Shown here in pieces: positions 13,570 to 59,867 of a stretch of 64,000 nucleotides of DNA (positions are counted from its first letter, which is position 1; each line of letters begins with the position of its first letter). The stretch is from Syntrophomonadaceae bacterium. GTDB lineage: Bacteria; Bacillota; PH28-bin88. Location: positions 130,919 to 194,918 of the forward strand of contig JAGXSE010000066.1 in assembly GCA_018333865.1 (NCBI GenBank), written 5' to 3'. The notes under the pieces were generated by a model. The model was not told where the DNA came from. It saw only the letters and a program-made list of their open reading frames with translations, and did not search any database. The position numbers and the translations under genes are program-made.

Positions 13570-13650
13570 CCCATCACCTCCTGACAGATTATTTTGATTC
13601 TTTGCCAGGGGACATGGTTGTTGACAATTGTTTCTAGGCATTAAAATACA

Positions 13651-13706
13651 TTAAGTTGCCCTAAACCGGATGATGTCGTCAATAACCCCGTCCCCTCGAC
13701 AACCAC
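13651..13706. repeat. Dispersed repeat (gttgccctaaaccgg ... ccccgtcccctcgacaac)
   Basis: About 55 bp beginning ttaagttgccctaaaccgg and ending with ccccgtcccctcgacaac. A near-identical copy in the opposite orientation lies at about 15097-15138. It belongs to the GGGGACGG-type repeats of this window and lies between two minus-strand genes. Confidence 0.7.
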
Positions 13707-13753
13707 TCGACAACCATTGTTAGTGTTGAACCGGCTCTGGCAAGTATTTTGCT

Positions 13754-14224
13754 TTAGGCATCGTTTCTGGCTAAACGCCGTTGAAAGTAGATGAAAATCG
13801 GTAGAGGAATAGCGATCCATCCAAAACTCTTAACCAGAGCATTTTTTGCTCTTGCACTTTGTCTTTCTTTTTCTGCTGCCACCATTGCATTATATCTTTC
13901 TTTTAACTCTTCTTCAGAAAGATTGGCTTCTTGAGGGACTTCGCCAGGGACACGTGGCTTTTCATGGCCCCAACGCTTAAAGTCCTCGAAAGATTGAAAG
14001 TGTGGCTGAGGGGCAACGATATCCGCAATCGCCATGAACATCCCTACACTCCCGCCAATAGTCATCATCAACGTAGCAAACAGCACTAAATATATATAAA
14101 CATGCTTAATCATTTCTGCTCCCCTTTCTTTGGATTGAACCTTCACTCCGGCGACCGCCATAATAACCAGTATAACCAGTACTATAATTACAGCCACCAC
14201 TAACAATGATAACGAACCAGCCAT
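13754..14224 (-). CDS. Small membrane protein of unknown function
   Basis: Up to 156 residues. Hydrophobic segments lie at about 5-27 (LLVVAVIIVLVILVIMAV), 41-68 (YIYLVLFATLMMTIGG) and 130-146 (FGWIAIPLPIFIYF), with a charged loop between the last two (about 70-128) rich in Glu and Lys. The start is uncertain: the ATG at 14224 has only a weak site, while the ATG at 14113 (residue 38) has AAAGGGGAGCAGAA and would give a 119-residue protein with two membrane segments. If the second start is right, the first segment belongs to untranslated sequence or a separate small peptide. I do not recognise a family with confidence. It precedes no operon partner closely. Confidence 0.6.
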   Translation of the reverse strand: MAGSLSLLVVAVIIVLVILVIMAVAGVKVQSKERGAEMIKHVYIYLVLFATLMMTIGGSVGMFMAIADIVAPQPHFQSFEDFKRWGHEKPRVPGEVPQEANLSEEELKERYNAMVAAEKERQSARAKNALVKSFGWIAIPLPIFIYFQRRLARNDA

Positions 14225-40132: not shown

Positions 40133-41815
40133 TTATTCCTCCCCCTGCTCAAATTCAATCATTTCCTGCAAGCCTTTGGCGTTTGGCACCATGGGATAAA
40201 CCATTTCACACCTCTTGATCAGGCATTCAATTATTGTCAGGCGCTTGTTGTTCAGAGCTTCTGCCAGAACCGGCCTCACTTCGCTTTTATCCGCTATTTG
40301 ATAGGCGGCCGCGCCATAACAAAGAGCCAGTTTCATGAAATCCGGGTTGCCGGTGTATTCGATGCCGATATAGCGGTTGTCGCAGTAATGCCGCTGCAAC
40401 TGGCGCACCATGCCCAGATTATTGTTATTTAAGAGGAGGATTTTTACCGGCAGGTTCTGTTCCACTGCCGTGGCCATTTCAGCCAGATGCATCTGGAAGC
40501 TGCCATCCCCTGTTACTGTAACCACCAGGGCATCGGGATCCGCCAATTGAGCGCCAATAGCCGCCGGGAAACCATAGCCCATTGTGCCAAGACCGCCAGA
40601 GGTCAGGAAACTGCCCGGGCGAGCAAAACCGTAATACTGGGCCGTCCACATCTGGTGCTGACCCACGTCAGCAGTAACAATGGCCTGGTGGCGGGAAAGC
40701 TCGCCTAACTGTTCAATAATATACTGGGGGCGAAGCTCATTTCCGTCCCGCCGGTACCGCAAGGGACGCTCTTCCTTTAACACCTGAATCCGGTCCAGCC
40801 AGGATTGCCGCCGGGCCGGGGCGGTCAATCTGAGCACTTCCCTCATTACCAGGCTCAATTCACCTACAATGGGCAGGTTAACTTCCACGTTTTTTCCAAT
40901 CTCTGCAGGGTCAATATCTACATGGACTTTTTTTGCCTGCGGCGCGAATTTGTCGATCAGGCCGGTAACCCTGTCATCAAACCGGACGCCTAGGCCGATA
41001 ATCAGATCCGCTTCACCCACTGCCAGGTTGGCACAGGGCCGGCCGTGGAGGCCCAGCATACCCAAAGCCAGGGGGTGAATTTCAGGAAAGCTCCCCAGGC
41101 CCATCAGGGTTGTGGTCACCGGCGCGCTGATAGCTAGAGCCAGCTGCACCAGCAAATCAGACGCTTTGGAGCTGACGATGCCTCCGCCGGCGTAAATCAA
41201 TGGGCGTTCAGCTTCTTCGATGAGTCTGACCAGGTTTTTGATCTGGGTGGGATGGCCCTGGTAGTTTGGCTTATACCCTTTCAGGTCAACCTCTACCGGG
41301 GCTTTAACCAGGCATTCCGCCACGGCAACATCTTTCGGAATATCCACCAGCACAGGGCCAGGACGGCCGGTGCCGGCGATATGAAAAGCCTCTTTTAAGA
41401 TCCTGGGCAGGTCATTAACGTCCTTTACCAGGTAATTATGCTTGGTAATGGGAATAGTGATTCCGGTGATGTCAACCTCCTGGAAGGCGTCAGTCCCCAC
41501 CATCGAAGTTGGCACCTGACCGGTAATGGCCACCAGCGGGATTGAGTCCATATAGGCCGTGGCCAGGCCGGTAACCAGGTTGGTAGCGCCGGGACCAGAG
41601 GTGGCAAGGCAAACCCCCGGCTGCCCCTTGATCCTGGCATACCCGCTGGCGGCATGAACTCCCGCCTGTTCAAGGCGCACCAGCACATGGCGGATGCCTG
41701 AATCATACAGGGCATCATAAACCGGCAGAACGCTTCCCCCTGGGATGCCGAATACCGTATCAACCCCTGCTTCTTTCAGGCACTTGATCAAGGCCTGAGC
41801 TCCTGAGATTCCCAA
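40133..41815 (-). CDS. ilvB: Acetolactate synthase, large subunit (first copy, downstream of ilvN)
   Basis: 560 residues from the TTG at 41815, chosen because GGAGGT lies eight bases before; an upstream ATG at 41866 has no good site. ThDP enzyme with [15 protein letters not shown], the conserved EQ of [14 protein letters not shown], and ThDP motif [15 protein letters not shown] ending in NNNNLGM. It condenses two pyruvates, or pyruvate with 2-oxobutyrate. Paralogue of the copy at 42428. C-terminal region ends [15 protein letters not shown], giving a full-length protein. Confidence 0.93.
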
Positions 41816-41940
41816 AATAAAAGCACCTCCGTTCATCGAAAGGAAAGCCGAGCAAAAAGCCGCCAATCGGTTTTCCGGATTTGATATGGAATAACCCTGA
41901 CTCTCGAACAGAATACCATCAATTTCCGGTTGTCAGAGCC

Positions 41941-42427: not shown

Positions 42428-44095
42428 CTACCTCCCCAACATTTTGTTCAGGGAACCTCCAGCGGGAACCATGGGAAACACGTTTTCTTCCCGTTCAACT
42501 ACAAATTCAATCAGAAAAGCCTCCGGGGTATTAAATGCCAGTTCCAGCGCCGGGCGGACTTCCTCCGGTTTTTCCACGCGGATTCCCTTGATGCCGTAGG
42601 CATCCGCCAGCTTAATAAAATCGGGCCCTCCATCGGCTATATCCGTGTGTGAATAGCGGCGGCCAAAAAACAGCTCCTGCCACTGGCGGACCATTCCCAG
42701 GTACTGGTTGTTGATAAGGGCGATTTTTACCGGCAATCCGTACTGCCGGATGGTAGCTAACTCCTGGGACATCATCTGAATACTGCCGTCTCCGGCAATG
42801 TCGATCACCAGGGCATCGGGTTTTGCCACCTGAGCTCCTACAGCTGCCGGAAGTCCAAATCCCATGGTCCCCAGGCCGCCGGAAGAGATGAACCTGCGGG
42901 GATAGTGACAGCAGCAATACTGAGCTGCCCACATCTGGTGCTGGCCTACGTCGGTGGTAATAATCGCCTCGCCTCTGGTAAGGTGGTTAATCTGCTCAAT
43001 TACATACTGGGGTTTCAAAGAGGCGCCGTCCTGTGTGTATTTTAAGGGGAACTCCCGCCGCCAGCGGTAAACCTGATCCCGCCACTTTGAATAATCCCTC
43101 GCTTCTACCAGTTGGATAAGCTGCTGCAGCACAAACTTCACATCGCCCACAATGGGAACATCTACCCGTACATTCTTACCAATCTCGGCGGCATCTATAT
43201 CGACGTGAATTATTTTTGCTTTTGGGGCAAAAGTGTCAACTCTACCCGTCACCCGATCGTCAAAACGCATGCCTAAAGAAATAAGCAAATCACAGGCGGA
43301 AATAGCGTAGTTGGCATAGGCGGTGCCATGCATCCCCGGCATTCCCAGACTTAGAAGATGATTTTCCGGGAATACACCTTTGGCCATTAAGGTGGAAGTA
43401 ACAGGTATACCAAGCTTTTCAGCCAGATCCAGCAGTTCCGGGGCTGCTCCGGCATTGACAGCGCCTCCGCCGGCCACAATCACCGGCCGGCTGGCCTCCG
43501 CCAGCATTTGGGCTGCCTGTTTAATCTGGCAATAATTGCCGTTTTTTGGTATTCGATAGCCTGGCACATCAAGCTTTTGGGGGTAAAAAAATTCCGCTTT
43601 AGCCGCCGCAATGTCCTTTGGCAAATCTATAATTACCGGCCCCGGCCGGCCGGTGGAAGCCAGGAAAAAGGCCTCCTGCACGATTCCGGCAATATCTTTT
43701 ACATCCTTCACCAAGTAGCTGTATTTGGTCACCGGCAGAGTGATCCCGGTGATATCCGCCTCCTGGAAGGAATCTTTCCCTACCATGTCCAGGGCCACCT
43801 GGCCGGTAATGGCTACCAGAGGAACAGAGTCCATATAAGCATTGGCAATACCAGTTACCAGATTGGTAGCTCCCGGCCCAGAGGTGGCAATCACTACTCC
43901 CGGCTTGCCTGTAACCCTGGCATAGGCATCTGCCGCATGGGCAGCTCCCTGTTCATGCCTCGTTAAAATATGTTTTAATTTCTCCGCCCGGAAAATGGCG
44001 TCATATAAGGCCAATACTGCTCCTCCCGGGTAACCGAAAACCATGTCAACCCCTTCCATCTCCAGGGCCTTGATCAGGATATCCGCTCCGGTCAT
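42428..44095 (-). CDS. ilvB: Acetolactate synthase, large subunit (second copy, upstream of ilvN)
   Basis: 555 residues. Same domain order as the other copy: FGYPGGAVLALYDAIF, RHEQGAAHAADAYAR with the ThDP glutamate, [10 protein letters not shown], and GDGSIQMMSQELAT then NNQYLGMVRQWQELFF. The last motif (LGMVRQWQELFF) is that of classical biosynthetic IlvB, while the other copy has [12 protein letters not shown]. It is the likeliest partner of IlvN, 7 bp downstream. Confidence 0.95.
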   Translation of the reverse strand: MTGADILIKALEMEGVDMVFGYPGGAVLALYDAIFRAEKLKHILTRHEQGAAHAADAYARVTGKPGVVIATSGPGATNLVTGIANAYMDSVPLVAITGQVALDMVGKDSFQEADITGITLPVTKYSYLVKDVKDIAGIVQEAFFLASTGRPGPVIIDLPKDIAAAKAEFFYPQKLDVPGYRIPKNGNYCQIKQAAQMLAEASRPVIVAGGGAVNAGAAPELLDLAEKLGIPVTSTLMAKGVFPENHLLSLGMPGMHGTAYANYAISACDLLISLGMRFDDRVTGRVDTFAPKAKIIHVDIDAAEIGKNVRVDVPIVGDVKFVLQQLIQLVEARDYSKWRDQVYRWRREFPLKYTQDGASLKPQYVIEQINHLTRGEAIITTDVGQHQMWAAQYCCCHYPRRFISSGGLGTMGFGLPAAVGAQVAKPDALVIDIAGDGSIQMMSQELATIRQYGLPVKIALINNQYLGMVRQWQELFFGRRYSHTDIADGGPDFIKLADAYGIKGIRVEKPEEVRPALELAFNTPEAFLIEFVVEREENVFPMVPAGGSLNKMLGR

Positions 44096-47503: not shown

Positions 47504-48361
47504 TTAATCCTCTTTTTTTTCTTCCTGCCTCTTTAAGTATCCTGCCACTTCATCGGTCATGAACTCTTCAAAAGCATAGTAGTCTTTTTCCGCTTCCTTT
47601 GCCACCTTGATGGTTTGATTGGGGGGAAACTTCAGGTTGGTAGGGCACGGGGCATAAATTTGGACATAGGTTGGGCCAAGCTCACGTGCGATCAGAATTG
47701 CGTTGCTAACCACCCTCCCTAACTTGCGGGGGCTTGCCACCGTTACCCGCGCACCGTAAACACAACCAGACACCTTGGCCATTTCAAAAACCGGCACTTT
47801 AGGAAATTTCTTGCCTGTAGGCGCCATGTTCAGGATCTGTCCCTGCACAGTCATACCACTTTCCTGGCCGCCGGTATTACCATATACTTCATTATCCACC
47901 ATAATTGTGGTGATTTTTTCCCGCCTGAACCAGGAATGCAGGGTTAAGTCCAGACCGATATCTGCTATCCCGCCATCACCCACCAGCACCACCACATCTT
48001 TGTGTTGATGGGGAAAACGGATTTGCAGCATTCTTTTCAGTCCGGAGGCCACCGCATTTTGATTGCCAAAAGCAGTATTCGAGTAATTTACCGCAGTCTG
48101 GACCAGCCCGAAAAAGGAACATCCAGGGGTGCCGATAATTATAGTATCCTCGGGTGCCGGCAAAGCGGCGACCGCCAACCTGATCCCCAGGGATACCCCG
48201 CACCCTGCACAGTGAGGATGTTCCTCGATTATTTCTTTAAAGGTGCCCAAATCCTCCACCCTCTTTTTCTCAAAAAAGGGCCCCTGGGCCACCAGGTCCT
48301 GGTATTCTTTTGGCAATAAATCCGCAAACTCCTCAACCGGAGTAATGATCTTGGTCGACAT
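47504..48361 (-). CDS. 2-oxoacid:ferredoxin oxidoreductase, beta subunit (copy 1)
   Basis: 285 residues. ThDP- and FeS-binding beta subunit: EEHPHCAGCGVSLG gives cluster cysteines; VVVLVGDGGIADIGLDLTLHSWFRREKIT and DNEVYGNTGGQESG are the ThDP-Mg motif. Works with the alpha, gamma and delta subunits to cleave a 2-oxoacid, producing acyl-CoA, CO2 and reduced ferredoxin. Paralogue of the gene at 50523, with which it shares most motifs. Substrate cannot be fixed; pyruvate is likely. Confidence 0.9.
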   Translation of the reverse strand: MSTKIITPVEEFADLLPKEYQDLVAQGPFFEKKRVEDLGTFKEIIEEHPHCAGCGVSLGIRLAVAALPAPEDTIIIGTPGCSFFGLVQTAVNYSNTAFGNQNAVASGLKRMLQIRFPHQHKDVVVLVGDGGIADIGLDLTLHSWFRREKITTIMVDNEVYGNTGGQESGMTVQGQILNMAPTGKKFPKVPVFEMAKVSGCVYGARVTVASPRKLGRVVSNAILIARELGPTYVQIYAPCPTNLKFPPNQTIKVAKEAEKDYYAFEEFMTDEVAGYLKRQEEKKED

Positions 48362-48449
48362 TGCTTGCCTCCTTTGCTCCAGCCCAGCACTCAGTCTCGT
48401 GATCGTGGGATGACGCCTGTTGTGTTTTGCCCAACGTAACCTGTCCCGC

Positions 48450-49622
48450 TTATTGTTTGCGATTGAGTGCTGGACGGGTGCTCAGAGCATTTTGCACTTC
48501 ATTGACGATCAGTTCTGTGGGCATCGTCATGCCGCCGAATACTCTGGGTCCGCCTACTACCCTTTCATTGTTATTAAGGGCAGCCTTGATCTCTCTGGCC
48601 AGCCAGCCCCCGGCATTGAATTCCGGCACCACAATCAAATCCGCCTGAGCCGTGGCAGCGACAATTTCGTTGGCAGGGAAAGGGCGAATTGATTTAATTT
48701 TAATCAGGCCCGCGTCGATGCCTTGAGCCTGTAAAACCTTCAGGGCCTCCCTGCATTGGGAAACAGCAGTGCCGGAAGCGGCCAGCAAGATTTTCGCACC
48801 AGGGTTTTCTGTTTCTAAAAGGCCGCCCAAATAGCGGTGAATGTATTTCTTGGCCCGTTCGGCTGCCGCCAGTATCTCTTGATGCCAACTGGCATTGGCA
48901 GCAAAACTGATAAAATTACTTTTATTCAGCAAGGGATCCCGGACAATCCTTATTGGTGGGGTTTCCATGTCAAAAGCAGGGACCGGTGCCCGCCCTGAGT
49001 CGTAAGCTGGTAATTTAATATCTTCCGGCGGAAGCATCACCCGATCCCTGGTATGGGTCACAAAAAAACCATCGGCAAAGACGCCCACCGGCAGATGCAC
49101 ATCAGTGTTTTCTGTAATGACATAGGCCTTCAGAATCATGTCAAAAAAATCCTGGGCATTCTCGGCATGAAACATCATCATCCCTGTATCCAAAAGCATT
49201 GCCATTTCAATGTTTTCCGGCTGGATCGAAGGCGGCAGGGCAACGCCCCGGCACATAAAGGCACAAACAATAGGCTGGCGGGAGCCGGCCCACACCGGAA
49301 ACATTTCCATCGCCCGCAAAGTCCCTGGGCCGCTGGTGGCGGTGAATACCCGCCCGCCTCCCAATGCAGCTCCATGAATTGCAGCCATGACAGCGAATTC
49401 GTTTTCCGCCCGGTAGTAGTCTTTCAAATAACCATTGGCAAATAAATCGCCTACCAGGTGCATGCTTTCACTTTGCGGGGTGATCGGATACGCAATAGCC
49501 ATATCCACATTTGCCCTTTTTATTGCCTCCGCAACTGCCTCACTGCCGGTGATAAATACCTGCTCCCTTGGGCTTTCAAATAACAAGTGCTCCGGATCAA
49601 CCACTCGCTGTTCCCTGATCAT
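48450..49622 (-). CDS. 2-oxoacid:ferredoxin oxidoreductase, alpha subunit (copy 1)
   Basis: 390 residues. N-terminal pyrimidine-binding domain: GSEAVAEAIKRANVDMAIAYPITPQSE, then ENEFAVMAAIHGAALGGGRVFTATSGPG. The C-terminal transketolase-C-like domain holds LLAASGTAVSQCREAL and IKSIRPFP. Paralogue of the copy at 51380. A 10-bp inverted repeat spans its end and the gap to beta (48384-48473). Confidence 0.9.
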   Translation of the reverse strand: MIREQRVVDPEHLLFESPREQVFITGSEAVAEAIKRANVDMAIAYPITPQSESMHLVGDLFANGYLKDYYRAENEFAVMAAIHGAALGGGRVFTATSGPGTLRAMEMFPVWAGSRQPIVCAFMCRGVALPPSIQPENIEMAMLLDTGMMMFHAENAQDFFDMILKAYVITENTDVHLPVGVFADGFFVTHTRDRVMLPPEDIKLPAYDSGRAPVPAFDMETPPIRIVRDPLLNKSNFISFAANASWHQEILAAAERAKKYIHRYLGGLLETENPGAKILLAASGTAVSQCREALKVLQAQGIDAGLIKIKSIRPFPANEIVAATAQADLIVVPEFNAGGWLAREIKAALNNNERVVGGPRVFGGMTMPTELIVNEVQNALSTRPALNRKQ

Positions 49623-49636
49623 TTACCTGGTACCTC

Positions 49637-49831
49637 CTAAACACCGCCAACAGTCAAAGCTTCCTTGGGACAAGTTGAAACACATAGCCCGCAGCCTTTG
49701 CAGCGGTTTTCATTTACTGTCACTTTTTTGTCTGTCTTGATTAAGATCAGAACATTGGGATCGGGACAACTATAAATACATAGTTTGCACCCGGTGCATT
49801 TTTCCACATCAACCTTAGCCACAGCATACAT
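49637..49831 (-). CDS. 2-oxoacid:ferredoxin oxidoreductase, delta (ferredoxin) subunit
   Basis: 64 residues with two [4Fe-4S] motifs: CTGCKLCIYSCPDPN and CKGCGLCVSTCP. Short 8Fe-ferredoxin that passes electrons out of the complex. It is the only delta subunit for the two alpha/beta sets. Confidence 0.92.
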   Translation of the reverse strand: MYAVAKVDVEKCTGCKLCIYSCPDPNVLILIKTDKKVTVNENRCKGCGLCVSTCPKEALTVGGV

Positions 49832-49854
49832 GGGTTACCCGCCTCCTTATCTCC

Positions 49855-50526
49855 TTATGCTTGCAGAGGAAACTCTTTAAGTGATTTACTGGCTTTTTCA
49901 AAAACTTCCATATTCTTTTCGATCAGTTGGGATGTCTTGGCGAATTTGCTTTTCATGGTATCGTCCAGGGCCGCAGTGGTGCCGGAAGCAATAAATTTGC
50001 CGCCGCCGAACCTCTCCGCCAAAGACTGCTTGATCGCCTCTTGCGATATGAGACCAGTTACTCCCAGCCATGCGCCCAGCATCGCGATATTGGTAGACAG
50101 TTCAGTACCCCCTACCTCCTGAGCGATCTGGGTGGCAGGCACATAGTATACTTTAGCTTTAATAGCGGCTAGCTTCGCCAGGTCTTCTTTATCTAAATTC
50201 AGAAACTCATTGGAGTTGATAATCAGGATACCTTCGGGCTGTAAACCCTCGAAAAAAGGCATGGTGTAACATTTTCCCATAGTTATTACATCGGGATGGA
50301 AAATCATGATTATATTAGGAAAAAGGATTTCTCCCCGCTCATAAATCTCACTTGTATCAATCCGGACATAGCTTTCAGCGGGAGCTAACCGCTTTTCTGC
50401 ACCAAAAAATGGGTTTACGGTACTCACCAAGCCCTCCCGGGTAGCGGCTGCACCCAAAATATGGGCAGCGGTAACCACACCCTGTCCGCCTAAACCGGAC
50501 ATGCGGATCCACATTTTTTCCCTCAT
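49855..50526 (-). CDS. 2-oxoacid:ferredoxin oxidoreductase, gamma subunit
   Basis: 223 residues. SGLGGQGVVTAAHILGAAATREG is the gamma-subunit motif, and NPFFGAEKRLAPAESYVRI follows. It starts inside the last four bases of beta copy 2 (ATGA). One gamma for two alpha/beta pairs. The C-terminal 40 residues (KFAKTSQLIEKNMEV) are helical and charged. Confidence 0.92.
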   Translation of the reverse strand: MREKMWIRMSGLGGQGVVTAAHILGAAATREGLVSTVNPFFGAEKRLAPAESYVRIDTSEIYERGEILFPNIIMIFHPDVITMGKCYTMPFFEGLQPEGILIINSNEFLNLDKEDLAKLAAIKAKVYYVPATQIAQEVGGTELSTNIAMLGAWLGVTGLISQEAIKQSLAERFGGGKFIASGTTAALDDTMKSKFAKTSQLIEKNMEVFEKASKSLKEFPLQA

Positions 50527-51383
50527 TCTTTCTTTCCCTCCTCAATCAGAGCCAATAATTCCTGGGCTGCCGGCGCAATATATTCCTTGTATTGGAAGGT
50601 GCCTTCCTTTTCCCTCTGCTTGATTCTGGCCACAGTCTCCTTGGGCGGGAATTTATAGTTGGTGGGACAGGGGGAGAACACCTGCAGATAGGTAGGTCCT
50701 GTCTCCCTGGCAACCAGAATGGCTCGCTTGACCGCCCTCTCCAAGCGCTTGGGCTGGGCTGGGGCAACAGCCGCTACATAGGCGCAGCCGGCTTCGCGGG
50801 CGATTTCCGGCAAGGAGAGCTTGGGAAATTTCTTCCCGGTGGGAGCCATGTTCAGCACCGTACCTAAAGTTGACATGCCGCTTTCCTGGCCGCCGGTGTT
50901 GGCATAGGCCTCATTATCCAGCATGATGGTGGTGATGTTTTCTCTTCTAAACCAGGAATGCATCACCATATCCAAGCCGATATCGGCGGTGGCTCCGTCT
51001 CCGGCAATTACTACCACATCCTTAACTCTGCCGGGATAACGAAGTTTCAAAGCCCGTTTCAGGCCAGATGCAACTGCGTTCTGGTTGCCGAAAAGAGAAT
51101 GGATATTATGCACGGCAACCTGCGGAAAAGCCAGGGAGCTGCAGCCGGTGGAACCTACGATCACGGTATCCTCAGGATTGGGCAAAGACGCCAGGATGAG
51201 GCGCAAAGAAAGGGCCAATCCACAGCCGGCACAAAGGGGGTGTTCTTCCAGGAGTTCCTTAAAGGTCCCCAGGTCAGATATGCCATAACCTTTTTCATAG
51301 GGTCCATGCTCTACCAATTCCCGGTACTCGGCCGGCATAATGTCCTCAAAGCCTGGAGCAATCGTGATCAGGCCTTTATTCAC
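50523..51383 (-). CDS. 2-oxoacid:ferredoxin oxidoreductase, beta subunit (copy 2)
   Basis: 286 residues starting with GTG at 51383, eight bases behind GGAGG; a frame-start at 51392 would overlap that site. Features: EEHPLCAGCGLALSLR, VIAGDGATADIGLDMVMHSWFRRENIT and NTGGQESGM. Overlaps alpha copy 2 by GTGA. Together with it this pair may be a distinct enzyme from copy 1. Confidence 0.9.
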   Translation of the reverse strand: MNKGLITIAPGFEDIMPAEYRELVEHGPYEKGYGISDLGTFKELLEEHPLCAGCGLALSLRLILASLPNPEDTVIVGSTGCSSLAFPQVAVHNIHSLFGNQNAVASGLKRALKLRYPGRVKDVVVIAGDGATADIGLDMVMHSWFRRENITTIMLDNEAYANTGGQESGMSTLGTVLNMAPTGKKFPKLSLPEIAREAGCAYVAAVAPAQPKRLERAVKRAILVARETGPTYLQVFSPCPTNYKFPPKETVARIKQREKEGTFQYKEYIAPAAQELLALIEEGKKE

Positions 51384-52522
51384 GCGGAACACCTCCTAAT
51401 TTCTGCCAAAATCATTTCGGGTGGCATGGTCATCCCGCCAAATACCCTGGGCCCGCCTACTACTTTGGTAGTATCATCCAACGAAGATTTAATCTCCCTG
51501 CTTAACCAGCCTACCCGGTTGAACTCCGGCACGATCAAAGCCTTGGCCTTTTGGGTGAGGCTTCTGATCTCTTTGACAGGGAAAGGCCGGATGCTCTTGA
51601 TCTTGATCAGGCCGACATCGATGCCTTCCTGGCGGGCTATCTTGATCGCGTCCCTGCTTTGAGATACCGCTGTGCCAGAGGCAACGATGAGAATTTCAGC
51701 CTCTTCGTTTTCCGCCTCTACCAGTCCCCCCAGGTACTTATCCACATGTTTTCGCGCCCGCTCTGCGGCGGCCATGATTTCTTGCTGCCAGGAAGCATGC
51801 GCGGCATAGCTGATAAAGTTGCTTTTCATCACGAAGGGGTCCCGCATCTGCCTGAGCGGAACAGTCTCCATGTCCATCGTTGGCACCGGTGCGCTGTGGG
51901 GATCGTAGGGAGGCAGTTTAATATTCGCCTGGGGCATCGCCACCTTATCCCTGGTATGGGTGACAAAAAACCCATCGGCAAAGACACCGGCCGGAATATG
52001 CACATCGGTTTTCTCTGCAATGACAAAGGCCTTTAATATCATATCATATAAATCCTGACCATTTTCAGCGTGGAACATCATGATCCCGGTGTCCAGCAAT
52101 GCTGCCATTTCAATGGTATCGGGCTGGATGGAGAGCGGAGAATTAACCCCCCTGGTCATAAAGGCGCAAACAATAGGAAGCCTGGCACCGGCCCAGGTGG
52201 GAAACATCTCAAAGGCCCGGTATGTTCCCGGCCCTCCGGTTGCGGTAAAGATCCGCACTCCCCCCATGGAAGCGCCTGCCACCGCAGACATTACCGCAAA
52301 TTCGTTCTCTCCGCGATAATATTCCTTCAGGTAACCCTCGGCATAGATGTCCCCCACCAGGTGCATGCTTTCCGACTGGGGAGTGATGGGATAAGAGATG
52401 GCCATGTCCACATTGGCTCTCTTGATCGCTTCCTTAACCGCTTCACTTCCGGTGATAAAGTGCTCTTCCCGCCCAGCCTGAAAGAGCAGGTGATCTGGCG
52501 TTACTACTTTCTGTTCAATCAT
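51380..52522 (-). CDS. 2-oxoacid:ferredoxin oxidoreductase, alpha subunit (copy 2)
   Basis: 380 residues from MIEQKVVTPDHLLFQ. Sequence closely follows copy 1: AYPITP becomes SYPITPQSE, and ENEFAVMSAVAGASMGGVRIFTATGGPG. The start overlaps the preceding gene by eight bases and has AAAGAGGG nearby. The pair alpha2/beta2 lies upstream of gamma and delta in the same transcript. Confidence 0.9.
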   Translation of the reverse strand: MIEQKVVTPDHLLFQAGREEHFITGSEAVKEAIKRANVDMAISYPITPQSESMHLVGDIYAEGYLKEYYRGENEFAVMSAVAGASMGGVRIFTATGGPGTYRAFEMFPTWAGARLPIVCAFMTRGVNSPLSIQPDTIEMAALLDTGIMMFHAENGQDLYDMILKAFVIAEKTDVHIPAGVFADGFFVTHTRDKVAMPQANIKLPPYDPHSAPVPTMDMETVPLRQMRDPFVMKSNFISYAAHASWQQEIMAAAERARKHVDKYLGGLVEAENEEAEILIVASGTAVSQSRDAIKIARQEGIDVGLIKIKSIRPFPVKEIRSLTQKAKALIVPEFNRVGWLSREIKSSLDDTTKVVGGPRVFGGMTMPPEMILAEIRRCSA

Positions 52523-53096
52523 GCAAAGCCCTCTTTTCCTTTGCAATTTCGGTAAGTTTTTGAATTTCCTTCAAACCGGCATCCCGCAGGCTGATCATGG
52601 CATCTTCATGTCCTTCTTCGCCACAGAGGGCAATAGTGTAACAAGAGGTGCCGCCACGGATGATCTTCAAGGCCATGTTCGCATAGTGGCAGTGAACTCC
52701 CACAAAAAAGCAAACATCTATTTTGTTGTGCCATATAGTTAAGTTGGGGTGATTAGGATTGATCTCGACATTAGGATCAATCATCGGGTATTTGGGCCGG
52801 TAATCCGGCATGGGAATAATTTTAGCGCCCAATGCTTCAGCCAATTCTTTTACTGCTTTTGCTCTTTCAGCTACTCCCTCTTTCCATGCCCAGAGGATCT
52901 TGGGACCCGGGAAAAAAACCGGATTTTTGGCCGCTAAGGCTTTCTCAATAATCTTTTGCATCGCCACTTCTTCCGGAACTATCTCTCCTTCTACCAAGGC
53001 CTCGCCTTTTTCTGGCAGGACCACTCCCATGGAAGCGGCTGCCGGCGGCAGGTAGCCTTCGGGTCCGGCCAGAACCCTGTACTCAGTTGTTAACAT
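52515..53096 (-). CDS. CO dehydrogenase/acetyl-CoA synthase epsilon-like (CdhB-family) protein
   Basis: 193 residues. The core AKNPVFFPGPKILWAWKEG, KIDVCFFVGVHCHYANMALKIIRGG and a Rossmann-like outline resemble the CdhB/ACS-epsilon family (COG1880 type) of methanogens, found in some Firmicutes as a companion of 2-oxoacid oxidoreductases. The role there is unknown; FAD or nucleotide binding is possible. First gene of the seven-gene operon, overlapping alpha copy 2 by eight bases. Confidence 0.75.
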   Translation of the reverse strand: MLTTEYRVLAGPEGYLPPAAASMGVVLPEKGEALVEGEIVPEEVAMQKIIEKALAAKNPVFFPGPKILWAWKEGVAERAKAVKELAEALGAKIIPMPDYRPKYPMIDPNVEINPNHPNLTIWHNKIDVCFFVGVHCHYANMALKIIRGGTSCYTIALCGEEGHEDAMISLRDAGLKEIQKLTEIAKEKRALHD

Positions 53097-53425
53097 TTAC
53101 TTCCCTCCTGTAAACTTTGCGTTAGTTAAGCTGTTCAACTTCGGCAAAACTTTTTTCCTGATCAAATACAAAATAAAAATGAGTCGAAATGATTGGTTGT
53201 ACGAATACCCTCATTATTATACACTAATAATTTTCTTTAGGGGAGACTTTTTATTGTCTAGTTGTACATAATATATAAGATAGCCCAAAATTTATAGTCA
53301 AGCCTTTTTTCGCCCCTCTTCATGCGTGGGGGGCAAGAGGGCAGAGTTTAGGTTAAGCTACAGCAGACATAAATTTTTTTCACTAACATGCACGATAACG
53401 ACAGGCCCCATCAAGTTCTAACGGT
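53097..53425. other. Intergenic region upstream of the 2-oxoacid oxidoreductase operon
   Basis: About 330 bp without a gene. It holds a sigma-70-type promoter (53272-53301) and a second TATAAT at about 53215. A hairpin CCCTCTT/AAGAGGG (about 53315-53341) is also present but lacks a T-tail in either direction, so it does not look like the MoaD-gene terminator. Confidence 0.5.
53272..53301 (-). promoter_or_regulatory. Sigma-70-type promoter of the 2-oxoacid oxidoreductase operon
   Basis: TTGACT (53301-53296) and TATATA (53277-53272) are separated by 18 bp on the minus strand, about 180 bp before the CdhB-like start. The spacing and sequences are acceptable, not perfect. Confidence 0.5.
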
Positions 53426-53665
53426 TCAACCTCCGTCTAACGGCCGGAAAATCGCCAACCGGTCCCCGTCAAGCAGCACCCTGTCGGCTGAGGCAGCAGC
53501 CCCGTTAACTACAACCAATATTTCCTGCACAACTGGGATGTTCAACTGGGCCAGCAACTGGGCTATTGTAACACCCTCTTCCCCAGTATAAGAGAAGGTT
53601 GACTTGCCAGGAACCGGCGAATACTTTTGCAGGTCAGCAAAAAGCTGTACTTGCACAACTGGCAT
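53426..53665 (-). CDS. MoaD/ThiS-family sulfur carrier protein
   Basis: 79 residues ending PLDGG. The C-terminal Gly-Gly is the adenylation and sulfur-transfer site of ubiquitin-like sulfur carriers; VVQVQLFADLQKYSPV, then GVTIAQLLAQLNIP and GDRLAIFRPLDGG are typical. Whether it serves molybdopterin, tungstopterin or thiamin synthesis is unclear. No MoaE-like partner is nearby. It follows the SDR gene by 14 bp and appears to be last in the operon. Confidence 0.88.
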   Translation of the reverse strand: MPVVQVQLFADLQKYSPVPGKSTFSYTGEEGVTIAQLLAQLNIPVVQEILVVVNGAAASADRVLLDGDRLAIFRPLDGG

Positions 53666-53679
53666 CAGACCACTTCCTT

Positions 53680-54426
53680 TTAATCCATTAAGATACCGCC
53701 ATTGATATTCATGGTCTCACCGGTGATAAAAGCGGCTGCGGGGGAACAGAGGAAAAGGATAGCCTCCGCCACTTCCTCTGCTTCGCCCATCCGGCCCAGA
53801 GGAATGGATTTAGTCATCGCGGCCTGAGTCGCTTCCGGCCAGACAGCAGTCATATCAGTAGCAATCGGGCCCGGAGCCACCGCATTTACCCGGATGCCAT
53901 ACGGAGCCCCTAATCTGGCCATGGACATGGTAAGGCAGATGACTCCTGCCTTGGAGGCCGCATAATGGGCCCCCGCCGCTATACCTCCTACTTTTCCGGC
54001 CAGAGAAGCAATGCTTACAATACAGCCTGATTTAGCTTCCATCATCATTTTCATGGCGGCTTGGGAACAAAGGAAAGTCCCCTTCAAGTTTATATCCATC
54101 ATCCGGTCCCATGCCGCTTCCGATAATTCAATAAAGGGAACAATTTCACAGATCCCGGCACAGTTGACCAATATATCTATCCTGCCATAAGCCTCTTTTA
54201 CCCGGGCAGCCATTTCCGCCACCTCAAGCGAACTGGCCACATCCACTTTTACGGCTAAGTGATTGCCCCCATCCCGGGCGATTTCCGCAACGGTCTGTTG
54301 GGCTAAACCAAAATCCAGGTCTGCTACAACCACCTGGGCGCCTTCTTTGGCAAACAACAGGGCTACAGCCTTGCCGATGCCCTTGCCTCCGCCGGTTATA
54401 ACCGCTACCTTTTCTCTCAGCTTCAT
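53680..54426 (-). CDS. Short-chain dehydrogenase/reductase
   Basis: 248 residues. Classical SDR: TGGGKGIGKA, NCAGICE, catalytic IVSIASLAG and YAASKAG. The acidic residue in VVVADLDFG after beta-2 favours NAD(H). It could act on acetoin, butanediol, sugars or fatty-acyl substrates. Its start overlaps the lipB stop by ATGA, so it belongs to the same operon as the lipoyl enzyme complex. Confidence 0.85.
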   Translation of the reverse strand: MKLREKVAVITGGGKGIGKAVALLFAKEGAQVVVADLDFGLAQQTVAEIARDGGNHLAVKVDVASSLEVAEMAARVKEAYGRIDILVNCAGICEIVPFIELSEAAWDRMMDINLKGTFLCSQAAMKMMMEAKSGCIVSIASLAGKVGGIAAGAHYAASKAGVICLTMSMARLGAPYGIRVNAVAPGPIATDMTAVWPEATQAAMTKSIPLGRMGEAEEVAEAILFLCSPAAAFITGETMNINGGILMD

Positions 54427-55103
54427 TCTTTTTCACCTCGACTTCGAATTTTGTCCCCGATCACGGCGAGATTAAACACCTGAGCAAAATGGACGGCTAC
54501 CCGTGCGGAAACCTCGCGCCAATCTGGCGCCTGCGGCAAGAGCTCCGCCAGGGAGGTAACCCGTTTATCCCGGATGCCGCAAGGGTGAATCAGGCTGAAA
54601 TGACTCAAATCAGGGTCCACATTCAGGGCAAAACCATGAAAAGTCACCCACTTTTTTACCCCAATGCCGATGGCGGCAATTTTGGCGTCTGCCACCCATA
54701 CGCCGGTATAGCCTGGAGCCCGGTGCCCGGCCAGGCCAAAGCCGGCTAAAGTCCTGATCAACACCTCTTCCAACCGGCGCAGGTAATCCTTCACATCTTT
54801 TCCGTGGCGATCCAGGTGCAGGACAGGATAACCCACCAGCTGCCCCGGCCCATGATAGGCAACATCACCGCCTCTGTCAGCGGAATAGATCTCAATACCT
54901 GCCTGAGCAAGGGCCTGGGGGCTGGCTAAAATGTTGCCCCTGTCCCCCGCCGCGCCGATAGTCAACAAAGGAGGGTGCTCGGTCAGGATCAGGGTATCGC
55001 CCCTCTCCCCCTGGATTACTTCAGCGGCCAGTCTTTTTTGCAACTGGCACGCCTCCAGGTAACCCATCCGTCCTGCCTCGATCAACCAGCCCCGCTCCAG
55101 CAT
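54423..55103 (-). CDS. lipB: Octanoyltransferase (lipoyl-ACP:protein transferase)
   Basis: 226 residues, normal length. Transfers octanoyl groups from ACP to lipoyl domains. Motifs: YLEACQLQKRL, LTEHPPLLTIG, RGGDVAYHGPGQLVGYPVL and IGVKKWVTFHGFALNV, with the nucleophilic Cys in SLIHPCGIRDKRVTSLAEL. No LipA gene is seen here, so lipoyl synthase must be encoded elsewhere. Directly follows the E3 gene. Confidence 0.93.
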   Translation of the reverse strand: MLERGWLIEAGRMGYLEACQLQKRLAAEVIQGERGDTLILTEHPPLLTIGAAGDRGNILASPQALAQAGIEIYSADRGGDVAYHGPGQLVGYPVLHLDRHGKDVKDYLRRLEEVLIRTLAGFGLAGHRAPGYTGVWVADAKIAAIGIGVKKWVTFHGFALNVDPDLSHFSLIHPCGIRDKRVTSLAELLPQAPDWREVSARVAVHFAQVFNLAVIGDKIRSRGEKE

Positions 55104-55121
55104 GACGTTCTCCCCCGCCGT

Positions 55122-56552
55122 CTAAATATGGATGGCTTTACCCACCACTGTGTGCGCTGCTTCCATGATGGCCTCGGCCAGGGTGGGATGGGCGTGAATG
55201 GTGTGAGCGATCTCCGCCGCTGTCAGTTCGGCCTGCATGGCCAGGGTCAGTTCAGCGATCAGGTCGGTGGCCCTGGGGCCAACCAGGTGGGCCCCCAGGA
55301 TCTCCCCGAACTCTTCGTCACAAACCAGTTTGACCATGCCCTCCTGCTCACCCATGGCAATGGCCTTGCCGTTGGCGTTGTATGGAAACTTCCCGACCTT
55401 TACCTTTTTGCCCTGTTCTTTTGCTTCTTTTTCCGTCAGCCCTACCCCGGCTACCTCCGGCGAGGTGTAAATACAGCCAGGGACAAACCTCAGGTCAGCC
55501 TCCTGGGAGCCGCCCAGGGCGTTTACTGCGGCCACCATCCCCTGGGCAGCAGCCACATGGGCCAAGAGGATGCCCCCGGTCACATCTCCCACCGCATACA
55601 CTCCCGGAATATTGGTCTCCATTTTCCCATTCACCAGGATTTTTCCTCTTTCTACCTTAACATTGGTATTTTCCAGCCCCAACCCTGCGGTATAGGGTTT
55701 GCGGCCTGCCGCTATTAACACAAGGGCAGAGGTAATGGATTGTTCCTGACCGTCTTTGGAGAGCCGCACCAATTTATCGTCCTGATTCTCCCCGTCGCTG
55801 ATGCTTATGATTCTGGCCCCGGTGATGCACTTAATCCCTTTTTTTACTAGGGCCTTTTCCAAGACCCCCACTATTTCCTCATCCATAACAGGCAAGAGCC
55901 TTGGCATCATTTCCACCAAAGTAACCTTGCTCCCTAAACTACTGAAAATGGAAGCAAATTCCACCCCGATCGCCCCGCCGCCGATAATCAGGAGGCTGGG
56001 CGGGACTTCTTTAAGATCAAGTGCTTCATCGCTGGTGACCACCCGGCTACCGTCCGCGCCGGGAACCGGCAAGGGAGCAGGTTCCGAGCCGGTGGCAATA
56101 ATTACTTTTCCGGGAAAGAGGGTCTCTGGCAGGCCGTCAGCACGGGTCACTTCCACTTTTTTATCGGCTAAAAACCTGGCCTTGCCCTTAATCACTCTTA
56201 TCTTGTTGGAGGACATTAAATATTCCACGCCTTTTACCAGCCGGGTAACCACCTGGTTTTTCCGGGCCATCATGCGGGCAAAGTCGATCTTAAAACCGTC
56301 CACCATCACACCCATGGAATGAGCCTTGCCCAAGCTGTCCACCAGCTCGGCGCTTTTTAACAAGGCCTTGGTGGGGATACAGCCCCGGTTTAAACAGGTC
56401 CCCCCTAGCCTGTCCTGCTCGACCAGCGTAACCTGTGCTCCCAGCTGGGCAGCCTTCACCGCGGCCACGTAGCCGCCAACGCCGCCGCCAATGATCAGGA
56501 GAGGGGCAATATCTGCAACTGCATTTTCTCGCAGTCCTGTTTCAGTAACCAA
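55122..56552 (-). CDS. lpdA: Dihydrolipoyl dehydrogenase (E3)
   Basis: 476 residues. FAD motif IIGGGVGGYVAAVKAAQLG, redox-active cysteines in LGGTCLNRGCIPTK, NAD motif IGGGAIGVEFASIFSSLG and C-terminal HAHPTLAEAIMEA with the catalytic His-Glu. Reoxidises the dihydrolipoyl arm of E2. Gene order on the minus strand is E1alpha, E1beta, E2, E3, lipB. Confidence 0.96.
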   Translation of the reverse strand: MVTETGLRENAVADIAPLLIIGGGVGGYVAAVKAAQLGAQVTLVEQDRLGGTCLNRGCIPTKALLKSAELVDSLGKAHSMGVMVDGFKIDFARMMARKNQVVTRLVKGVEYLMSSNKIRVIKGKARFLADKKVEVTRADGLPETLFPGKVIIATGSEPAPLPVPGADGSRVVTSDEALDLKEVPPSLLIIGGGAIGVEFASIFSSLGSKVTLVEMMPRLLPVMDEEIVGVLEKALVKKGIKCITGARIISISDGENQDDKLVRLSKDGQEQSITSALVLIAAGRKPYTAGLGLENTNVKVERGKILVNGKMETNIPGVYAVGDVTGGILLAHVAAAQGMVAAVNALGGSQEADLRFVPGCIYTSPEVAGVGLTEKEAKEQGKKVKVGKFPYNANGKAIAMGEQEGMVKLVCDEEFGEILGAHLVGPRATDLIAELTLAMQAELTAAEIAHTIHAHPTLAEAIMEAAHTVVGKAIHI

Positions 56553-56573
56553 TCTGATCCCTCTTTTCGCAAG

Positions 56574-57887
56574 TTACGTCAAAAGTAATAGCGGCTTTTC
56601 CAAGAGTTCTTTTATCCGCTTAAGGAAGCGGGCCGCCGGAGCTCCGTCAATTACCCGGTGATCAAAGGAAAGGCTCAAGCTCATCATCGTCCTGACAACT
56701 ACTTGCCCATCTACCGCAACCGGCTTTGCCACCATGCGCCCAATTCCCAGGATGCCGCTTTCCGGCTGGTTAATTATAGGTGTGAAGGTATCGATCTCAA
56801 ACATGCCCAGGTTGCTGATGGTAAAAGTGCCCTCACTCATTTCATCTGGCAAGAGCTTGCCAGCCCTAGCCTTATCTACCAATTTTTTGGACTCGATGCA
56901 GATTTCCGCCAGAGATTTGCTCTGGGCCCGTTTAAGAACCGGGACCACCAAACCGTTCTCCGCATCCACTGCTACCCCAATGTTAATATCCTCCTGCAAG
57001 TGAATTGCGTTTTCCTGCAGGGTCGCGTTCATCAGGGGATGTTCGGACAGGGCCCGGGACACCACTTTTATAATTATATCATTATAGGACAACTTATGGC
57101 CCGTTATTTTTTCAATTTCCGGCAACAGTTGTTTCCGCAAACTAATGGTCTCCGTCATGTCTACCTCGGTATTCAGGGTAACATGAGGAGCCGTCTGGCT
57201 GCTGGCAGCCATGCGCTGGGCAATTATTTTACGAATTCCGCTGAAAGGGATAGTGCGGGCTATGGGTTTCACCGCCACAACCGGGACCGGTGGGGCAAGA
57301 GCCTGTTCGACATCTTTTTTCATCACCTTCCCATGGGTGCCGGAACCACAAATACCGCCCACTTCTATCCCAGAGGCAAGAGCAACTTTTTGCGCCAGCG
57401 GGCTGATTCTGACAGCAGTCGCCAAAGCCGCATATGCCAGGACATCCCTTTCCACAATCCTGCCATTAGGTCCGGTACCCTGAATCGGGCTGTATTCAAT
57501 CCCTTTCTCCCGGGCAGCTTTTTTGGCCCGGGGGGAGATAAAAATCCTTTGTCCAGGCTCCCGGTGAATCTGTTCCAGGGCTGGAACAACTTCAGGCTTA
57601 GCGGAGGCAGGCGCTTTTTCCTGCCCCGAAGCAATAGCCACTACCTCGCCTGGTTCCGTTATGTAGGCGATCACGGCAGTAACAGGAACCGTTATCCCTG
57701 CCGCCACCAGGATTTTGCCCAAGATACCCGTAGTTTGGGCCTCCACCTCGATGGTGGCTTTATCTGTCGTCACTTCAAACAGGGGCTGCCCCTTTGCTAC
57801 CGGCTCGCCTTCCCCAACGAGCCAGCGGACAATTGTCCCTTCCGTCATGGTTAAGCCCAAGCTGGGCATGATCACTTTAGTCGCCAT
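56574..57887 (-). CDS. 2-oxoacid/acetoin dehydrogenase E2 with two E3-binding domains
   Basis: 437 residues. Lipoyl domain (about 1-78, lipoyl Lys43 in TDKATIE), then two peripheral-subunit-binding domains: residues about 117-150 (ISPRAKKAAREKGI) and 160-197 (ISPLAQKVALASGI), then the acyltransferase domain (about 210-437) with SFDHRVIDGAPAARF. The tandem E3-binding domains are less usual; one lipoyl domain is standard. It acyl-transfers from E1 to CoA. Substrate may be pyruvate, acetoin or a branched 2-oxoacid. Confidence 0.93.
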   Translation of the reverse strand: MATKVIMPSLGLTMTEGTIVRWLVGEGEPVAKGQPLFEVTTDKATIEVEAQTTGILGKILVAAGITVPVTAVIAYITEPGEVVAIASGQEKAPASAKPEVVPALEQIHREPGQRIFISPRAKKAAREKGIEYSPIQGTGPNGRIVERDVLAYAALATAVRISPLAQKVALASGIEVGGICGSGTHGKVMKKDVEQALAPPVPVVAVKPIARTIPFSGIRKIIAQRMAASSQTAPHVTLNTEVDMTETISLRKQLLPEIEKITGHKLSYNDIIIKVVSRALSEHPLMNATLQENAIHLQEDINIGVAVDAENGLVVPVLKRAQSKSLAEICIESKKLVDKARAGKLLPDEMSEGTFTISNLGMFEIDTFTPIINQPESGILGIGRMVAKPVAVDGQVVVRTMMSLSLSFDHRVIDGAPAARFLKRIKELLEKPLLLLT

Positions 57888-57911
57888 TAATTCCCCTCCT
57901 TGGCCACACCG

Positions 57912-58883
57912 TTAAATGATTCGTTTGACTGCCTCAATAACATCCTTTTCCTGGGGCAGAGTTGCCATTTCCAGCTTACCGTTATAGGGGATGGGCACAT
58001 CCAGGGCTGCCACCCTCTGCACCGGCGCATCCAGGTAATCGAAGGCCTCCTCCATGACCTGGGCTGCCAGGTCCGCTCCCGCGCCGCAGCGCCGATGCGC
58101 CTCATGGCAGATGACCAGCCGGCCGGTCTTCTGCACCGATCGGATGACTGCAGCCAAGTCCAGGGGCACCAAGGTTTTCAGGTCGATGACTTCGGCATCG
58201 ATCCCTTCTTGTGCTAATTCTTCGGCTGCTTTTAAAGTCTTTAAAAGCATGAGAGAATAAGACACCAGGGTGATATCCTTTCCTTCCCGCTTCACCTCAG
58301 CCTGACCAAAAGGAATGGTATAGTCTCCGTCAGGCACTATTCCCTTTGTGGCATAGAGGAGCTTGTGTTCCAGGAAAAGCACCGGGTTATCGTCTCTGAT
58401 GGCTGTTTTTAAAAGACCCTTGGCATCTTTAGGGGTAGCGGGCAGGACTACTTTGATACCAGGCACATGGGTAAACCAGGCCTCCAGGCTTTGGGAGTGC
58501 TGGGCGGCATTTCCCCGTCCACCGCCTTGCTGGGTACGGATCACCATCGGCAGCTTGGCCTTGCCGCCGAACATATACCTGAGCTTGGCCATTTGGTTGG
58601 CAATCTGATCCATGGCTACCGCGGTAAAGTCAACATACATCAATTCCGCCACCGGCCTGGTCCCGGTGACCGAAGCGCCAATCGCCGCTCCCACAAATCC
58701 CGCCTCAGAAATAGGGGTGTTTCTCACCCGCTTCGGGCCAAATTCCTGAAACAACCCTTTAGTCACCTGGAAGATCCCGCCGTGCAGCCCAATATCTTCC
58801 CCCATGATAAAGACATTTGGATCCCTATGCATCTCTTCCCGCAGGGCCTCTGTTAAAGCCTGCAGGTAGGTAATTTCACGCAT
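57912..58883 (-). CDS. 2-oxoacid/acetoin dehydrogenase E1 beta
   Basis: 323 residues. Transketolase-like beta subunit: MGEDIGLHGGIFQVTKGL, RVRNTPISEAGFVGAAIGA, QQGGGRGNAAQHSQSLEAWF. Forms the alpha2beta2 ThDP enzyme with the next gene. AcoB and PdhB are similar at this level, so the substrate is open. Confidence 0.93.
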   Translation of the reverse strand: MREITYLQALTEALREEMHRDPNVFIMGEDIGLHGGIFQVTKGLFQEFGPKRVRNTPISEAGFVGAAIGASVTGTRPVAELMYVDFTAVAMDQIANQMAKLRYMFGGKAKLPMVIRTQQGGGRGNAAQHSQSLEAWFTHVPGIKVVLPATPKDAKGLLKTAIRDDNPVLFLEHKLLYATKGIVPDGDYTIPFGQAEVKREGKDITLVSYSLMLLKTLKAAEELAQEGIDAEVIDLKTLVPLDLAAVIRSVQKTGRLVICHEAHRRCGAGADLAAQVMEEAFDYLDAPVQRVAALDVPIPYNGKLEMATLPQEKDVIEAVKRII

Positions 58884-58904
58884 TAAAAGTTTCCCCTCCC
58901 TCTT

Positions 58905-59867
58905 TTAGCTGGCAAAGACATCTTGGAGCAGGTCTTCTGGCGATGGTTCCGGACTCTCCAGAGCAAAGGCGCTGGCCGCCGCAATCGCCTGCTCGACCTG
59001 CCGATGAATTTGCTCCAATTCTGTCTGGGCGGCGATGCCTTCTCCCACCAAGACTTTGGCCAGATGTTGGATGGGATCCCGCTCTTTCCACTGGCGCAGT
59101 TCCTCGTCACTCCGGTAAACACAAGGATCGCCCTTGTAATGCCCCTCATGCCGGTAAGTCTTGCATTCCAGGAGGGTAGGTCCTGCCCCGGCCCTGGCTC
59201 TGGCCACCGCCTGACAGGCCGCCTGGTAAACGGCCCGCACATCGTTGCCATCCACAATTACTCCGGGGATATTATAGGCTTTGGCCCGGTCGGCAATATC
59301 CGTTACCGCCACCGCTTCTTTAGCCGGGACAGTGATGCCGTACAGGTTATTTTCGCAAACAAAAAGCACCGGCAGCCGCCAGATTGCCGCCAAATTCATG
59401 GACTCGTGAAAAACCCCCTGATTGGTTGCGCCATCACCGAAAAAAGCCACCGCCACCTGATCCGTCCCCCGGTACTGGGAAGACAAGGCTGCGCCGACAG
59501 CGACAGGAATTCCTGCCGCTACAATACCATTGGCCCCCAGGTTGCCGGTATCCAGATCGGCGATGTGCATGGAACCTCCCTTGCCCTTGCAGCAACCGGT
59601 AGCCTTCCCCAAGAGCTCGGCCATGGTCCGGTTAATATCGGTTCCTTTAGCCAGGCAATGGCCATGCCCCCGGTGGGTGCTGACGATATAATCATCCTGC
59701 CGCAGGGCATGGCATACCCCGACTGCCACCGCCTCTTCGCCGATATAAAGGTGCATGGAGCCCCGGATCAGGCCTTGAGTAAAAAACTCAATGGCCTTTT
59801 CTTCGAACCGGCGGATCTTGACCATATCTTCGTACATTATTAACAACTTATCGCTAGATAGTTCCAA
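58905..59867 (-). CDS. 2-oxoacid/acetoin dehydrogenase E1 alpha
   Basis: 320 residues. ThDP motif FFGDGATNQGVFHESMNLAAIW ends in NNLYGIT; HLYIGEEAVAVGVCHAL and STHRGHGHCLAKG match E1alpha proteins of the acetoin dehydrogenase type. The phosphorylation-loop region (TYRHEGHYKGDPCVYR) is compact as in AcoA. First gene of the enzyme-complex operon downstream of the alcohol dehydrogenase. Confidence 0.93.
   Translation of the reverse strand: MELSSDKLLIMYEDMVKIRRFEEKAIEFFTQGLIRGSMHLYIGEEAVAVGVCHALRQDDYIVSTHRGHGHCLAKGTDINRTMAELLGKATGCCKGKGGSMHIADLDTGNLGANGIVAAGIPVAVGAALSSQYRGTDQVAVAFFGDGATNQGVFHESMNLAAIWRLPVLFVCENNLYGITVPAKEAVAVTDIADRAKAYNIPGVIVDGNDVRAVYQAACQAVARARAGAGPTLLECKTYRHEGHYKGDPCVYRSDEELRQWKERDPIQHLAKVLVGEGIAAQTELEQIHRQVEQAIAAASAFALESPEPSPEDLLQDVFAS

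Follow-up and report, generated by a model that had tools for sequence, protein, structure and literature searches.

The stretch of DNA analysed here (64,000 nucleotides of contig JAGXSE010000066.1 from a Syntrophomonadaceae bacterium, in the following the window) carries on its minus strand, from position 53096 to 47504, a compact operon of seven genes for a 2-oxoacid:ferredoxin oxidoreductase (OFOR) in the order delta (CdhB-like), alpha1, beta1, gamma, ferredoxin, alpha2 and beta2. All seven open reading frames (7/7) that an earlier sequence-only reading had listed are present at their positions, head to tail on one shared strand, with overlaps of at most 13 bases or gaps of at most 88 bases. 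The first gene (52515..53096) encodes a CdhB-like protein of 193 amino acids (aa) which matches the Pfam family PF02552 with 146 bits and corresponds to the PorD/ForD-type delta of five-subunit OFORs. It is followed by alpha1 (51380..52522; 380 aa), whose start is better placed at 52522, giving an 8-base overlap with the 3′ end of delta, and by beta1 (50523..51392; 289 aa), the subunit binding thiamine pyrophosphate (TPP); both belong to a putative pyruvate-type core. Gamma (49855..50526; 223 aa; PF01558 134 bits, TIGR02175 PorC_KorC over its cut-off) and an 8Fe ferredoxin subunit (49637..49831; 64 aa; two Fer4 domains, eight cysteines) are shared with a second core comprising alpha2 (48450..49622; 390 aa) and the TPP-binding beta2 (47504..48361; 285 aa). 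The shared ferredoxin is called PorE/ForE (epsilon) in the five-subunit scheme and delta in the four-subunit scheme; gene orders are written below with E for the CdhB-like gene, A, B and G for alpha, beta and gamma, and D for the ferredoxin.

The Pfam domains (PF02552, twice POR_N with PFOR_II, twice TPP_enzyme_C, PF01558 and a 2x[4Fe-4S] ferredoxin) all score far above their cut-offs and agree with the open reading frames, so that the operon proposed earlier, with duplicated alpha/beta and the CdhB-like gene in front, is confirmed. YPITP and ENEF are retained in both alphas. Both catalytic cores look active because both betas have kept the four cluster cysteines and the GDG...N motif for TPP. 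None of the NCBIfam equivalog cut-offs for alpha or beta was reached, the nearest models being mostly pyruvate synthase. Oxalate oxidoreductase was rejected (NCBIfam alpha and beta models 128 and 116 bits versus cut-offs of 500 and 590), as was phenylglyoxylate dehydrogenase, whose models score far under their cut-offs. The closest solved alphas and betas are those of a four-subunit pyruvate:ferredoxin oxidoreductase (POR) (9bt4) and of oxalate oxidoreductase (5c4i), but the active-site loop of these enzymes is unlike that of the window proteins, and neither is known to have a CdhB-like subunit. Upstream of the operon an AT-rich leader of 329 bases (53097..53425, minus strand) with the putative ribosome-binding site GGAGGG before delta is probably the operon's own promoter region. 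A scan for consensus promoters found no excess of them, and an Rfam scan of 44-56 kb of the window gave no useful match.

The first five genes form a complete five-subunit-type OFOR set of the kind purified from Hydrogenobacter and Aquifex: alpha, beta, gamma and the 2x[4Fe-4S] protein are encoded together, and a PF02552 gene, resembling the epsilon subunit of carbon monoxide dehydrogenase (CODH), lies in the same operon. POR and 2-oxoglutarate:ferredoxin oxidoreductase (OGOR) of Aquifex and Hydrogenobacter possess five subunits, one of which, named delta, resembles epsilon of CODH/acetyl-CoA synthase (CODH/ACS) and was found in active Aquifex complexes by gel and mass spectrometry (PMC10052474). 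The deltas of Leptospirillum OFORs have been assigned to PF02552 in the sole paper naming this family in the literature searched (PMC2607301). The CdhB-like protein of the window is this known extra subunit, and the idea of a stray gene or a novel C1 bridge was therefore rejected (PMC10052474). All five subunit families are common to the window operon and the porEDABG and forDABGE clusters of Hydrogenobacter thermophilus and Aquifex aeolicus. However, these organisms, which are aerobic autotrophs with the reductive tricarboxylic acid (TCA) cycle, have POR and OGOR as two separate five-gene clusters, whereas the window, from a host with CODH/ACS, combines one helper set with two cores. The five-subunit POR clusters of Nitrospira and Nitrospina show the same E-A-B-G-D order as the window, with delta and alpha1 57-66% identical; in Nitrospira, Nitrospina and Leptospirillum a separate second (OGOR) cluster exists where the window has alpha2-beta2.

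In structure, too, the subunit resembles epsilon. An AlphaFold model (mean pLDDT 84) gave as best fold match by E-value the epsilon chain of a methanogen CODH of the acetyl-CoA decarbonylase/synthase (ACDS) type (9c0s_C, E 4e-4, TM-score 0.52). The single sequence found no match in the PDB with phmmer, but a profile built from 79 relatives matched the epsilon chains of 3cf4 and 9c0q by sequence. Family and fold are thus common to the window subunit and to CdhB, the epsilon of archaeal ACDS and of hybrid bacterial CODH/ACS. The partner of the window subunit, however, is an OFOR: its gene lies in the OFOR operon instead of with CdhA/CdhC, and the true CdhB of the genome, encoded at another locus, is 24% identical to it (bacterial CODH versions in general 21-24%). 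Cys136, Cys158 and His163 are invariant in 79/79 relatives, bacterial CODH versions included, and were not seen in the methanogen epsilon compared with them.

There is a single gamma, ferredoxin and CdhB-like gene for both alpha/beta pairs. In the genome of the window, estimated to be 100% complete, 12 POR_N and 11 PF01558 loci were counted, two of each being of the IOR type, which leaves 10 alphas versus 9 gammas. Eight of the ten alphas are paired with their own adjacent gamma (one of them fused), and the two alphas of the operon share the ninth. No spare gamma for the second core was found elsewhere in the genome by this count, and a separate gamma and ferredoxin serving this core was thereby rejected; the sharing suggested by the sequence-only reading holds (its delta being the ferredoxin of the four-subunit naming).

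With the CdhB-like protein 84,980 species genomes were scanned and 312 relatives confirmed, of which the best 80 loci were examined. These span Bacillota, Thermodesulfobacteriota, Nitrospirota, Nitrospinota, Elusimicrobiota, Chromatiaceae and others. OFOR genes adjoin the CdhB-like gene in nearly all of them, answering the earlier proposal to check this co-occurrence, and E-A1-B1-G-D was seen in nearly all where the contig permits. The full order E-A1-B1-G-D-A2-B2 exists in many Bacillota and in Desulfobotulus, and A2-B2-E-A1-B1-G-D occurs at three further loci (L041, L042, L044). The arrangement is not due to chance, since it is kept in many other genomes. A gene for DUF6671 is inserted in the two-pair cassette of L028 and L037; such a gene recurs beside or within the OFOR cassette at these two and at L051, L057, L058, L061 and L066, and a DUF4914 gene recurs in five loci (L038, L052, L054, L055, L062).

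Two readings of the duplicated pairs had been offered, a heteromer with two active sites or interchangeable cores. An obligate mixed complex would be a dimer of one alpha1-beta1 half and one alpha2-beta2 half on common helpers, hence one particle performing two carboxylations, and fits the presence of one operon and one helper set for both pairs. However, two Acetivibrionaceae (L055, L062) possess an A2-only cassette, E-G-D-A2-B2, and no A1-type alpha was found in their genomes, whereas other genomes contain the A1-only cassette E-A1-B1-G-D without A2B2. Neither core, then, generally needs the other, and we regard the obligate complex as quite unlikely. The main argument in favour of interchangeable cores is that either one can be found with this helper set in the absence of its counterpart.

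The phylogeny of both pairs, likewise proposed before, was calculated and bears on their substrates; the labels POR and OGOR in these trees rest on annotations from Nitrospira and Nitrospina and not on the Hydrogenobacter and Aquifex sequences. Both genera have two OFOR clusters each. A peptide of the POR alpha of N. marina, TPSFFTGSEVIK (PMC8115632), matches the Nitrospira cluster resembling A1, 12/12 in several genomes. The OGOR of Nitrospina has been reported without a CdhB-like subunit (PMC3578206), and the second Nitrospina cluster indeed lacks one. In alpha and beta trees the window cores group with the five-subunit POR and OGOR of Nitrospira and Nitrospina. A1/B1 stand on the POR side, next to the E-containing POR clusters (support 81 in the joined alpha and beta tree and 73), and A2/B2 form a fully supported lineage of their own, placed with OGOR with support of 80 (alpha), 86/76 (beta) and 81 (joined). 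In the alpha loop SIQP[DE]xIEM, POR has QPDT, A2 QPEN and OGOR QPDN; nearly all POR betas carry GDGA and NE[AL]YAN, whereas GDGG and NEVYGN are found in the A2 lineage and in OGOR. The letters common to the latter two are thus T144N in alpha and A134G and A164G in beta; NEAYAN of beta1, following GDGA, and T144 of alpha1 are POR-like. Alpha1-beta1 would accordingly be the pyruvate-type core.

For the second core the distribution among genomes is informative. In a phylum sample of 398 genomes, 18 had these clusters (in G291 a contig end truncates the OGOR alpha), A2B2 being present in 11/18, a separate OGOR-type cluster in 7/18 and both in 0/18. A set of 27 genomes, partly overlapping with the former, contained A2B2 in 13, the OGOR cluster in 8, both in none and neither in 6. 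The chance of no overlap would be 3e-5 and 1e-3, respectively, if the genomes were independent, which they are not. From these data A2B2 appears somewhat more probably than otherwise to be a functional stand-in for OGOR. Several observations weigh against this assignment. Counted by family, one OGOR family stands versus five A2 families (P 0.17), the grouping of A2 with OGOR has a support of only about 73-81, and the approximately unbiased (AU) test did not reject A2 with Bacillota POR (p 0.47). Furthermore, because of private fixed changes of A2 (the RGVALPPSIQPEN loop, A90H and L123Q) this core may act on a substrate other than pyruvate or 2-oxoglutarate. Alpha2-beta2 could then be a pyruvate-type isoenzyme or use another 2-oxoacid (2-oxobutyrate, a branched-chain or an aromatic one), an appreciable possibility to which the AU test gives room, as do the alpha columns shared with POR (19, versus 4 with OGOR), the loop residues unique to A2 and the ilv/leu genes close by; the OGOR-like TPP-motif letters, T144N and the fact that A2B2 and OGOR clusters never occur together in the genomes searched speak against it. 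In addition, a four-subunit POR-like enzyme and several of KOR-like type are encoded in the genome besides this operon, which is therefore not the sole route.

Carboxylation, that is CO2 fixation under scarce CO2, is the likely direction of the reaction, because the gene neighbourhoods of the relatives and the origin of their hosts point there. Within 10 kb, 22/45 of the loci outside Nitrospira have at least one of the genes for the bicarbonate transporter SbtA, SbtB/PII, MpsC, PurE/PurK or a two-subunit pyruvate carboxylase, and formate dehydrogenase (FDH) genes likewise adjoin related operons. Bicarbonate is handled by PurK, pyruvate carboxylase and SbtA; MpsC, annotated as part of a Na+-translocating system, may be linked to inorganic carbon as well. 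Judging by record names and by two papers (PMC7325909, PMC6305446), several of the hosts originate from serpentinite or alkaline sites. The copy in the window has no flanking bicarbonate genes and lies between PDH-type and ilv/leu genes instead, which weakens the case, and its direction would follow from that of its relatives. A catabolic enzyme, oxidising 2-oxoacids, for instance from amino-acid breakdown, with reduction of ferredoxin, would suit the reversibility of OFORs, and the many OFORs of the genome and the upstream PDH-type genes are compatible with the use of organic acids. However, the relatives adjoin the carboxylation-related and formate dehydrogenase genes named above, and those five-subunit enzymes that are known from biochemistry function in the reductive TCA cycle (PMC10052474), which makes a catabolic role rather doubtful.

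The surroundings of the operon were mostly annotated by reading. Upstream on the same strand (53426-59867) lie ThiS-like (the only one scanned), short-chain dehydrogenase, LipB-like, dihydrolipoamide dehydrogenase-like, E2, E1 beta and E1 alpha genes, read as a lipoate-dependent 2-oxoacid dehydrogenase cluster of the pyruvate dehydrogenase (PDH) type adjoining the OFOR operon. Downstream, an HD-GYP-like gene is followed by an ilv/leu operon with two acetolactate synthase large-subunit-like genes (40133-41866 and 42428-44095) on either side of one small-subunit-like gene. A further region (2474-11301) contains a large molybdopterin oxidoreductase-like gene with 3-hydroxyacyl-CoA dehydrogenase-like, CoA-transferase-like and cyclase-like genes nearby.

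Taken as a whole, an OFOR operon of the five-subunit type that carries a second, exchangeable core, both cores mainly carboxylating and the CdhB-like subunit capping a cluster, is in our view the best explanation and a reasonably probable one. Together with gamma, ferredoxin and the CdhB-like subunit, alpha1-beta1 would form a POR, and alpha2-beta2, docking on the same three helpers, an oxidoreductase for 2-oxoglutarate or a similar larger 2-oxoacid. Acetyl-CoA or succinyl-CoA would be converted with CO2 and reduced ferredoxin to the 2-oxoacid, electrons presumably passing from the ferredoxin subunit via the [4Fe-4S] cluster of beta to TPP. As a Rossmann-type cap, the CdhB-like subunit may shield or organise both an exposed cluster of low potential and the docking site of the electron partner, thereby favouring CO2 reduction. 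The epsilon of CODH is a Rossmann-fold chain burying the D-cluster (PMC11474084), and in the CODH of an ethanotroph an electron-transferring zeta subunit is placed where alpha and epsilon meet (PMC11493965). That the capping is an analogy from CODH counts against this part of the explanation.

The CdhB-like subunit had also been suspected to tie 2-oxoacid cleavage to C1 metabolism. As stated, it is a known OFOR subunit, and its relatives point to reductive carboxylation; what stands is a looser tie that concerns the family as a whole. In the phylum sample, 37/37 full-length PF02552 genes adjoin an OFOR (26), an FDH of the FdhF, NuoE and NuoF type, a selenocysteine type (8), or CODH/ACS (3). 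Weak matches in longer proteins (about 350-750 aa) were left out of this count, since they are probably the similarly folded middle domains of TPP enzymes. The genome of the window has one PF02552 gene per type: in addition to the OFOR operon, an FDH operon FdhF-CdhB-like-NuoE-NuoF (L157:6716-12649) with an in-frame TGA in DCCARLUHAP, and the CODH/ACS locus L156. A CdhB-like gene in an FDH operon was seen in eight genomes of the phylum sample. The latter (3370-13848) reads as a hybrid operon, with CdhA, CdhB and CdhC beside a second prismane/CODH-type protein and an AcsB-like protein. On one contig of genome G117 the seven OFOR genes, interrupted by DUF6671, are immediately followed by NuoE-NuoF-FdhF and another PF02552 gene (L201, L202). 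Elsewhere, a CODH/ACS cluster with an NADH module was seen (L196:4680-15001), in which CdhA-CdhB is followed by NuoE, NuoF, an FdhF-like large protein and CdhC. The FDH-associated proteins form one clade, which lies nearer the OFOR-associated proteins than those of CODH, and are 44-50% identical to the window protein. No description of the association of PF02552 with FDH was found in the literature searched, most subscription papers lying outside that search.

An oxygen-protective function has been proposed for the five-subunit OFORs of aerobes, and the five-subunit forms of H. thermophilus support aerobic growth, as far as the citing papers convey (PMC8115632, PMC3578206). Oxygen tolerance as the general purpose of the CdhB-like subunit fits poorly because the subunit is spread in genomes carrying CODH/ACS; the type is present in Bacillota with CODH/ACS and selenocysteine-type FDH, usual in anaerobes, and the OGOR of the aerobe Nitrospina does without it (PMC3578206). 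That the subunit mainly confers oxygen tolerance is therefore unlikely. It might be an accessory subunit in general use among CO2-reducing enzymes linked to ferredoxin (OFOR, selenocysteine FDH with NuoE/NuoF, CODH/ACS) in which the invariant Cys136, Cys158 and His163 form a metal or redox site, and which in alkaliphilic or serpentinite-associated bacteria belongs to a carbon-assimilation island where cores for pyruvate and for 2-oxoglutarate can be exchanged on one helper set; we put this forward tentatively.

The five-subunit kind of OFOR was already known, though seldom studied, and the two-core form with shared helpers is new as far as the literature searched shows. More interesting than the latter is the pattern of the PF02552 family. 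The role of the CdhB-like subunit has been called intriguing in the Aquifex work (PMC10052474), and that it is encoded next to three different enzymes reducing CO2, in genomes of the anaerobe type, speaks against a general function in oxygen tolerance; POR alone, OGOR alone, the two-core enzyme, FDH and CODH are natural comparisons for finding that role. The two-core operon itself is a simple system for asking if OFOR helpers serve cores of different substrate range, which would be useful for engineered CO2 fixation.

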